From contig NZ_VIGW01000004.1 of assembly GCF_007858435.1 (NCBI RefSeq), positions 349,708 to 413,707 on the forward strand: a stretch of 64,000 nt of DNA, written 5' to 3'. The notes below the pieces were generated by a model, which saw only the letters and a program-made list of their open reading frames with translations, had not been told where the DNA came from and ran no database searches. The translations under genes were made by a program, and so were the position numbers. Positions 24,996 through 26,646 of this stretch are shown here, piece by piece. The first letter of the stretch is position 1; every line of letters starts with the position of its first letter. The stretch comes from Tsukamurella asaccharolytica. Its GTDB lineage: Bacteria > Actinomycetota > Actinomycetes > Mycobacteriales > Mycobacteriaceae.

Positions 24996-25102
24996 TTTCT
25001 CACAGCGAACGCTGATTCTTTGACGGATGGTGGTCGTCCGGTCGCAAGCCTCGTATCATGATGGGAGGAGTTGGACCCCAATGAGTGCTGAAGGAGGGGA
25101 AC

Positions 25103-25522
25103 GTGCCACTCTCCGAGCACGAGCAGCGCATGCTCGACCAGATCGAGAGCGCGCTCTACGCCGAGGACCCGAAGTTCGCGTCGAACGTACGCGGCGGTCG
25201 GTTCGCCGGCGCGTCGGGTAGGCGTCGCATCTACGCCGCGATCGGCTTCGCGGTCGGATTGATGCTGCTCATCGGGGGCATGCTGCTGGGTAGCGTCGAA
25301 TACACCGTGATCGTCGGCCTCATCGGCTTCCTGCTGATGTTCGGTTCCGTGATCTACGCGCTGTGGTCCGGACCCGCCGCCAAGGGCCCCCGCGGCACCG
25401 TCGAGAACGACGGCTCCGTGCGCTCCCGATCCGGGCGCGGCCGCAGTGCGCGAGGCGCCCGAGCCTCCGGGCAGTCCTTCGTCTCCCGCATGGAGGAGCG
25501 CTTCCGCCGCCGCTTCCCCTGA
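25103..25522 (+). CDS. DUF3040 membrane protein (Rv2169c-like)
   Basis: A 139-residue protein starting with the highly conserved PLSEHEQRMLDQIESALYAEDPKFAS, followed by two transmembrane helices (about 51-70 and 76-94) and a basic Arg/Ser-rich tail. It is the DUF3040 family, found just upstream of mraZ in many Actinobacteria, with no established function. GTG 25103 has AAGGAGGGG in front and starts exactly at the conserved motif; the ATG at 25081 is out of frame. TATCAT at 25054-25059 is a possible -10. A strong intrinsic terminator follows the stop by 15 bp. Confidence 0.85.
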   Translation: MPLSEHEQRMLDQIESALYAEDPKFASNVRGGRFAGASGRRRIYAAIGFAVGLMLLIGGMLLGSVEYTVIVGLIGFLLMFGSVIYALWSGPAAKGPRGTVENDGSVRSRSGRGRSARGARASGQSFVSRMEERFRRRFP

Positions 25523-25537
25523 GTTCCGCATACTGAG

Positions 25538-25569
25538 AAAGCCGCCGACTTGATGGTCGGCGGCTTTTT
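25538..25569 (+). terminator. Rho-independent terminator after the DUF3040 gene
   Basis: A 12-bp arm AAAGCCGCCGAC, a 6-nt TTGATG loop, the complementary arm and a run of five T form a textbook intrinsic terminator. It insulates the dcw cluster from upstream transcription and is the best terminator in the window. Confidence 0.92.
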
Positions 25570-25601
25570 CGTTGCGACGTGAGCGAAATCGGTCACCGTC
25601 T

Positions 25602-25669
25602 CCGGCGCTACAGAGATCTTCGCGCGCTACGGGAATGTCCGGGCGCTTCGTGGATCTCCGTAGCGCCGG
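25602..25669. repeat. Long hairpin (17-bp arms, 34-nt loop) between terminator and mraZ
   Basis: The left arm (25602-25618, starting CCGGCGCTAC) and right arm (25653-25669, ending GTAGCGCCGG) pair over 17 bp with one mismatch. The 34-nt loop contains further GCGCTAC and GGGCGCTTCG variants. It lies outside any gene, 33 bp beyond the terminator. It could be an extragenic palindrome or the body of a small RNA. Confidence 0.55.
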
Positions 25670-25707
25670 AAGGTTCGCGTAGCGCCGAAAGGTTCCCGTA
25701 GCCGCGG
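25659..25707. repeat. 19-bp tandem repeats, two full and one partial copy
   Basis: Units beginning CGTAGCGCCGGAAGGTTCG (25659), CGTAGCGCCGAAAGGTTCC (25678) and the partial CGTAGCCGCGG (25697) follow at a 19-bp period. The first overlaps the right arm of the hairpin above. Confidence 0.6.
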
Positions 25708-25733
25708 GGATCGCCGTTGCGCGCGGACGCGGC

Positions 25734-25787
25734 GTTCCCCACTTCTCCCCACCGCTGTTCCCCACTTCTCCCCACGGCCCGCCCCCA
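25734..25787 (-). repeat. TGGGG pentamer array on the minus strand, MraZ-box-like
   Basis: Five CCCCA pentamers (TGGGG on the minus strand) start at 25737, 25747, 25760, 25770 and 25783, spaced 10, 13, 10 and 13 bp. Two 19-bp direct repeats (25734-25752 and 25757-25775) contain four of them. The paired 5-nt spacing equals that of MraZ-binding repeats. It lies about 160-215 bp upstream of the main mraZ operator. Confidence 0.45.
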
Positions 25788-25950
25788 CGTAATCCGTCGT
25801 GCCCCAGGAGCCTCATTCGTCGCGCAGATCGCGCACGACCCCGCAGGTGTGACGAAGTTCGCCACGCCGGGGCGCGCCGCGTCCCCCACATCGCGCCACG
25901 ACACTGACCTGCATTGATCCTGAGAATTCGTCGCGAAACGCGGTGCGATG

Positions 25951-25995
25951 TGGTTGAAAGTGGTGGATGGTGGGGTAATGTGGGGCGCACTGGTG
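25951..25995 (+). promoter_or_regulatory. mraZ operator: five MraZ-binding repeats overlapping the promoter
   Basis: Five TGGNN pentamers, TGGTT, TGGTG, TGGGG, TGGGG and TGGTG, begin at 25951, 25961, 25971, 25981 and 25991, exactly 10 bp apart. This is the known MraZ-binding repeat layout (TGGGN with 5-nt spacers). A promoter, TTGAAA (25954-25959), 16-bp spacer, TAATGT (25976-25981), lies within it; TAGTCT (26006-26011) is a second -10 candidate. MraZ is therefore expected to repress its own dcw operon. Confidence 0.85.
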
Positions 25996-26061
25996 AAAGA
26001 CGAGCTAGTCTGAAGTCTCGATCCAGTGACAACCCCTCGGGGTAGGCGGGAGGTGACCGTG

Positions 26062-26493
26062 ATGTTCACGGGTACCTACACGCCGAAGCTCGACGACAAG
26101 GGACGGCTCACCCTCCCCGCGAAGTACCGCGAGGAACTGGCGGGTGGGCTGACGATCACGAAAGGACAGGATCGAAGCCTCACGGTGTACCCGAAGGCGG
26201 AGTTCGAGCGGATCGCCGAGAAGGCGGACGCCATCGAATGGACCGACCCCGCGGGACGCGCCTTCTACCGCAACTTCTTCGCCAGCTCGGACGATCAGCG
26301 TCCCGACTCGCAGGGTCGGATCTCGCTCTCGGCCGATCACCGTCGCTACGCAGGCCTGACCAAGGAATGCGTCGTCGTCGGATCGCGGAGATTCCTGGAG
26401 ATCTGGGACGCGGAGGCGTGGGACGCCTACCAGGCACAGCACGAAGACGACTACGCACAGCCGCAGTCCGAATCGCTCAAGGCGATCTTCTGA
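26062..26493 (+). CDS. mraZ: Transcriptional regulator MraZ
   Basis: A 143-residue protein made of two SpoVT/AbrB-like swapped-hairpin halves, each with a DxxGR signature: [17 protein letters not shown] (residues 6-22) and [15 protein letters not shown] (about 83-97). MraZ forms a ring and binds TGGGN repeats to control its own dcw operon. I chose ATG 26062, preceded by GGGAGG, over the in-frame start at 26026; it gives the same 143 residues known in M. tuberculosis. It is the first gene of the division cluster, and its operator is clear upstream. A 153-bp gap separates it from rsmH, unusual within this tight cluster. Confidence 0.95.
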
Positions 26494-26646
26494 CAACCGC
26501 GCTCGCGCGCGGCCCGGTCGAGGTGGACCGAGGCCTGCGCCCGAACCGACCCTGACGTACTTCCCCAACGCCAGGTGCGGCTCGGGCGGGGACCCCGCTC
26601 CATCCGCCAGCAACCATCGAACGTCATCGTGTGCCCTGGAGGAGCC

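Follow-up and report, generated by a model that had tools for sequence, protein, structure and literature searches.

An inverted distal box array upstream of mraZ as a candidate helically phased auxiliary operator in Tsukamurella, Mycobacterium and their relatives

Two arrays of MraZ-type boxes in opposite orientation lie upstream of mraZ in Tsukamurella asaccharolytica; both are conserved, and in Mycobacterium the distance between them is helically phased. The best explanation, which we regard as probable, would be a two-part operator with MraZ rings bridging both arrays in a DNA loop. The mraZ (dcw) promoter would then be controlled from two places: a proximal direct array lying over the promoter; and distal inverted pairs, about 100-300 bp upstream, serving as auxiliary operator. 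The MraZ ring oligomer, with its presumed several DNA-binding surfaces, would bind both arrays and so form the loop; the loop would raise MraZ occupancy at the promoter and strengthen the feedback by which MraZ represses its own gene and the division genes. The effect is taken to be repression because the proximal boxes cover the promoter. MraZ binding at the distal boxes, loop formation and the repressive effect are what we infer from sequence.

The window is a stretch of 64,000 nucleotides, and the gap between its DUF3040 gene and mraZ forms the head of the dcw cluster. The features of this locus are:

25085..25522, plus strand: gene of a DUF3040 protein, upstream of the gap (Pfam PF11239, E 2.3e-26)
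25535..25570, plus strand: hairpin with a T run after it, which probably terminates the DUF3040 gene (inverted repeat I5; complementarity 93%)
25737..25752, minus strand: distal inverted pair 1, GTGGGGAGAAGTGGGG on the minus strand
25760..25775, minus strand: distal inverted pair 2, GTGGGGAGAAGTGGGG, 23 bp downstream of pair 1
25783..25788, minus strand: fifth distal pentamer, CCCCAC in the window only
25884..25899, minus strand: third inverted pair (CCCCACATCGCGCCAC), 64 bp upstream of the first proximal box, missed by the first-pass annotation
25905..25912, plus strand: TGACCTGC element (TGANMTGS), 65 bp upstream of the anchor
25950..25995, plus strand: proximal MraZ-type array, five TGGNN at 10-bp steps (from sequence and the Tsukamurella comparison)
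25954..25959, plus strand: predicted -35 TTGAAA (from sequence and conservation)
25970..25983, plus strand: anchor GTGGGGTAATGTGG, with the predicted -10 TAATGT at 25976-25981
26062..26493, plus strand: mraZ (Pfam PF02381, E 1.4e-38, two domains)
26515..26615, plus strand: mraW RNA (RF01746), between mraZ and rsmH (57.8 bits; gathering score 50)

The MraZ protein of the window is 99-100% identical to MraZ of six named Tsukamurella loci, and the mraW RNA motif downstream of its gene is a known cis-regulatory RNA. At the other end of the gap, the hairpin at 25535-25570 is not among the calls of a consensus terminator scan. An Rfam match to RybB (25509-25573) falls below its gathering score and is assigned to this terminator hairpin; microRNA matches in the locus, likewise below their gathering scores, are taken as chance. 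The interval between the terminator and the distal array holds overlapping inverted and direct repeats of GTAGCGCCGG type (25601-25702).

The first-pass annotation, made on the letters of the window, had described the proximal array as five TGGNN pentamers at exact 10-bp steps (25951-25995), and the box positions bear this out: GTGG at 25950, 25960, 25970 and 25980, and CTGG at 25990. The genome has two overlapping matches to three GTGG at 10-bp steps, and both belong to the proximal array; the reversed-pattern control gives 3. These direct repeats stand upstream of mraZ, with MraZ encoded directly downstream. Among 16 Tsukamurella loci, the window's own included, TTGAAA-N16-TANNGT is present in 15, and a GTGGNNTA-type anchor is found in 221 of 222 distinct mraZ upstream regions. 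TTGAAA, a 16-bp spacer and TAATGT within the array are read as a predicted sigma-A-type promoter, and the array as a putative MraZ operator overlying its -35 and -10.

The position of this array bears on the identity of the partner of any protein at the distal boxes. One possibility would be that distal MraZ is an upstream activator that touches RNA polymerase by looping, in which case polymerase, rather than proximal MraZ, would set the phase. Activation by MraZ is reported in a mycoplasma (available text of PMC7761207) and, because the proximal boxes are fused to the promoter, sequence cannot separate polymerase from proximal MraZ as the partner; we nonetheless consider an activator unlikely, since the array overlies the -35 to -10 region, as expected of a repressor, and the distal boxes resemble the proximal ones.

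The distal array is also present as first annotated, as five TGGGG pentamers on the opposite strand: CCCCAC (minus-strand TGGGG) begins at 25737, 25747, 25760, 25770 and 25783, giving steps of 10, 13, 10 and 13 bp. The array is a 23-bp unit in tandem and lacks uniform 10-bp steps. Its CCCCACN4CCCCAC pairs lie about 200-230 bp upstream and share with the proximal array, inverted, the GTGGGG box and the 10-bp pair step (GTGGGGN4GTGGGG). GTGGGGANNNGTGGGG occurs twice in the window, both times in the distal array, against 0.00 expected (100 shuffles). CCCCACN4CCCCAC has 4 occurrences in the 4.12-Mb genome, against 2 for the reversed-pattern control; two of the four are the distal pairs, a third is the proximal array in its opposite-strand reading, and one lies elsewhere. 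The last (G000:C21:494767-494782), the sole match outside the mraZ promoter, is a possible further site.

Conservation in close relatives had been named in advance as the refutation test of the distal pentamers, and across the 16 Tsukamurella loci four of them are kept and the fifth is not. Pair 2 is intact in 16/16, at 187-189 bp from the first proximal box. For pair 1, 15 loci are long enough and L093 is too short: 11 have the pair intact at 230-232 bp from the anchor, L097 has it at 237 bp, and in L084, L089 and L098 it is imperfect. At the place of the fifth pentamer, CCCCAC occurs in none of the 15 other loci; L096 has TCCCAC and the other 14 have no box. The spacer between the arrays is barely alignable in the two most distant Tsukamurella loci.

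Beyond the genus, 120 regions were hand-chosen from mraZ searches (one with coordinates for part of 396 genomes), 22 of them (L218-L239) because they matched the pattern. In all, 241 upstream regions were parsed (L130 and L135 left out), giving 222 distinct regions and 221 after removal of the anchor-less L133. A promoter-overlapping site together with a distant site of the same kind, namely a strong inverted pair 100-330 bp upstream, is found in 188/221 regions, and in 166/199 without the 22 pattern-picked ones. By group, the strong pair is present in 16/16 Tsukamurella, 88/91 mycobacteria (69/72 without the pattern-picked regions), 64/81 other family members, 19/28 of the Corynebacterium group (absent in 9/28) and 1/5 from other families. 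Nineteen further order-level regions stand outside the 221; the strong distal pair is absent from most of these order-level relatives, and a relaxed pair is found at 100-330 bp in 4 (L251, L257, L262, L264) and at 83-86 bp in 3 (L256, L261, L264). Two records are likely mislabelled or mixed bins: the mraZ region of L010 (Acidobacteriaceae bacterium) is Tsukamurella-like and that of L069 (Bifidobacterium breve MAG) is Mycobacterium-like.

Further elements lie between the arrays. The third inverted pair keeps its start at 64 bp from the first proximal box across all 16 Tsukamurella loci, with its first box intact in 16/16 and its second (CCAC) in 15/16. Of the other non-mycobacterial family members 54/81 have a CCCAC box at 83-86 bp upstream of their anchor, as do 13/28 of the Corynebacterium group and 0/91 mycobacteria. 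Between the distal and third pairs lies a near-palindrome, GTGACGAAGTTCGCCAC (25847-25863), whose strict form is present in 7/16 Tsukamurella loci. Another element, TGANMTGS, stands 63-66 bp upstream of the anchor in 16/16 Tsukamurella, 59/81 other family members and 3/5 from other families; counted at 62-67 bp (again 16/16 and 59/81), it compares with a background of 15/4777 six-base windows. Of the 91 mycobacterial regions, 43 contain it, none at 63-66 bp and most at 117-119, 128-130 or 140-141 bp; its distance from the distal pair is 20-21, 30-33 or 42-44 bp in 39 of 40 cases measured and 52 bp in the other. By these distances to the anchor and to the distal pair, in steps of about 11 bp, TGANMTGS is phased with both arrays. 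By eye, no -10 stands at the right distance for TGANMTGS to be a promoter element.

The presence of an element between the arrays is one of several observations that would suit a protein other than MraZ at the distal CCCCAC pairs, acting on the promoter in a phase-dependent manner. The distal steps are 10/13 and not 10/10, MtrA binds the mraZ promoter in Dietzia (available text of PMC9602371), and binding of MraZ to the distal pairs is itself deduced from sequence. Such a protein is rather improbable in view of the GTGGGG box and 10-bp pair step common to both arrays, and of a 16-mer pair pattern that this genome carries at one place only outside the promoter.

The distance between the arrays, D, was measured between the distal box and the anchor, which is the second proximal box. 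With the spacer divided into three adjoining ranges, a distal pair, a spacer and GTGGGGTANNGTGG occur in this order in 53, 246 and 84 genomes out of 366 from Mycobacterium, where a genome may count twice; among the matches listed, the reversed-pattern control gives 0 in each range. The matches listed cover 256 Mycobacterium genomes (150 matches for the 246-genome range); 32 of these have more than one distance, and the nearest D was used. The nearest D falls into eight clusters, at 115, 126, 139, 149, 160, 172.5, 183.6 and 195.4, with one listed genome besides at 204. Among the matches listed, no genome has D of 116-125, 128-136, 141-147, 153-158, 164-168, 175-180 or 186-190.

The best period over the 256 listed genomes is 11.45 bp, with R 0.775 (0.21 at 10.0), and the slope of the cluster centres among the matches listed is also 11.45 (s.e. 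0.08). With the lattice fitted on the same data, 236/256 listed genomes lie within 2 bp of it, against 44% expected, and 20/256 lie farther off. When the 37 distinct distances among the matches listed are each counted once, R is 0.63, a value reached by none of 20000 random sets. The evenness of the eight cluster centres among the matches listed, with the one-genome cluster at 204 dropped beforehand, has P of 5e-6 to 1.2e-4. The 88 fetched mycobacterial regions give a best period of 11.0, not 11.45, and one of them, L032, has D 128, in a stretch that is empty among the 256 listed genomes. As read from these genome sequences, Mycobacterium bears an evolutionary signature of helical-phase dependence. 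Three steps below 115, the mycobacterial lattice has a point at 80.7, which the third pair, at 84-85 bp, misses by 4 bp.

Spacing of this kind could in principle be a by-product of shared ancestry, or of gain and loss of the 23-bp unit, with no helical phasing. Ancestral distances are common to species and tandem repetition of distal pairs is frequent: across genomes, adjacent pairs are 22-24 bp apart in 54/65 steps listed and exactly 23 bp in 40/65. Among the matches listed, however, R is 0.11 at 23 bp against 0.775 at 11.45, and both half-lattices are filled (142 and 114 genomes), so that unit gain and loss was rejected as the sole cause. Ancestry was addressed on an MraZ and RsmH tree of 113 loci, which yields 35 independent pairs of unequal D; the 16 with a difference below 5 bp were set aside. 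In the other 19 phylogenetically independent pairs the changes fall close to multiples of 11 (P=0.00015), in a test with a slight bias towards the observed value, whose maximum was sought at period steps of 0.1 against 0.25 for the null, and the changes include 10, 11, 21, 22, 32, 33 and 44. The anchor-to-ATG and distal-to-ATG distances share the same ancestry but have no period, with R(11.45) of 0.10 and 0.04, and the start codon was discarded as a reference point. Together, these observations make a purely historical origin very improbable.

Outside Mycobacterium, phasing is weak and suggestive only, because there are few distinct values (best period 10.85, R 0.58, n=64; R 0.37 for distinct values). 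The Corynebacterium group has scattered D with no clear phasing (R(11) 0.43, n=19, best period 8.3). Three groups have D near steps of 11: R(11.45) is 0.90 in g44 (22 regions, with the putative label Nocardia-like), 0.89 in g49 with Rhodococcus (13) and 0.73 in g10 (11).

The first-pass annotation had entertained control of an antisense transcript. That the distal array serves an antisense or upstream promoter as an operator of its own is hardly credible despite the opposite strand of its boxes, as none of 258 distal pairs scored carries TA at the -10 place or the proximal-type -10 hexamer (TANNGT), against a TA-bearing anchor in 221/222 proximal arrays, and Pfam gives no match for the single minus-strand ORF examined in the gap (25608-26069). 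A sigma-70 scan of both strands of 25500-26070 finds 0 promoters; this is weak evidence, because the scan misses the proximal promoter too.

Taken together, these results give the looping idea of the first annotation strong indirect support: the pairs are conserved, the Mycobacterium distance is quantised near 11.45 bp, and the spacer sequence is not conserved. A quantised distance across an unconserved spacer points to two proteins, or parts of one, facing each other across a DNA loop. MraZ is described as an octameric torus in Mollicutes (available text of PMC7761207) and solved structures exist (1n0e, 9qlr, 9qlg, 9sx6 and others), which suggests that a single MraZ oligomer could in principle hold both arrays. 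The PDB entry 9qlr contains 36 chains of one sequence, more than one octamer. In its broadest form, the proposal would be that throughout mycobacteria and their relatives the dcw promoter is repressed by an MraZ-ring loop, for which the inverted distal array supplies the helically phased auxiliary operator; spacer lengths would then measure the helical repeat of mycobacterial DNA in vivo, at about 11.45 bp per turn, and TGANMTGS may bind a partner, MtrA being one candidate, that bends or locks the loop. We hold this wider version to have slightly more in its favour than against it.

MraZ stands at the head of the division and cell-wall cluster in a large part of bacteria. If the proposal is true, a phased inverted auxiliary operator would give the MraZ ring a concrete job, the bridging of two arrays; the dcw operator would have to be revised in mycobacteria, where division regulation matters for growth and drug response; and the helical phasing of natural loops would become readable from genome collections.

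The proximal array resembles the MraZ operators of E. coli, Burkholderia cenocepacia, Mollicutes and Corynebacterium glutamicum, which are direct GTG(G)-type repeats at steps of about 10 bp adjoining mraZ; that of B. cenocepacia has four 7-nt repeats with 3-nt spacers (both from the available text of PMC7761207). In those described there, the boxes lie downstream of the -10, whereas in Tsukamurella they overlie the -35 to -10. The published operators compared in that text also agree with the earlier statement that MraZ operators are single proximal arrays; MraZ left the upstream half of the B. cenocepacia intergenic region unbound (same text), whereas Tsukamurella has a second, inverted array upstream. 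No description of a distal inverted MraZ array was found in the literature searched, a scope outside which most subscription papers fall. Within that literature, what appears to be new here is a loop-type auxiliary operator for a regulator without a known one.

A further likeness is to the auxiliary operators of lac and ara, where, as here, a second box of the same kind lies about 100-300 bp off at a distance quantised near 11 bp. Three differences set the present case apart: looping is ascribed to a ring-shaped candidate protein of AbrB-like fold, and the loop is deduced, not observed; each site is an array of short direct repeats, with one array inverted; and the phase comes from natural variation, not from engineered spacers. 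In vivo lac loops have given 11.60, 11.08 and 10.95 bp per turn (available text of PMC1762422), and the period of 11.45 bp matches this range of 10.95-11.60.
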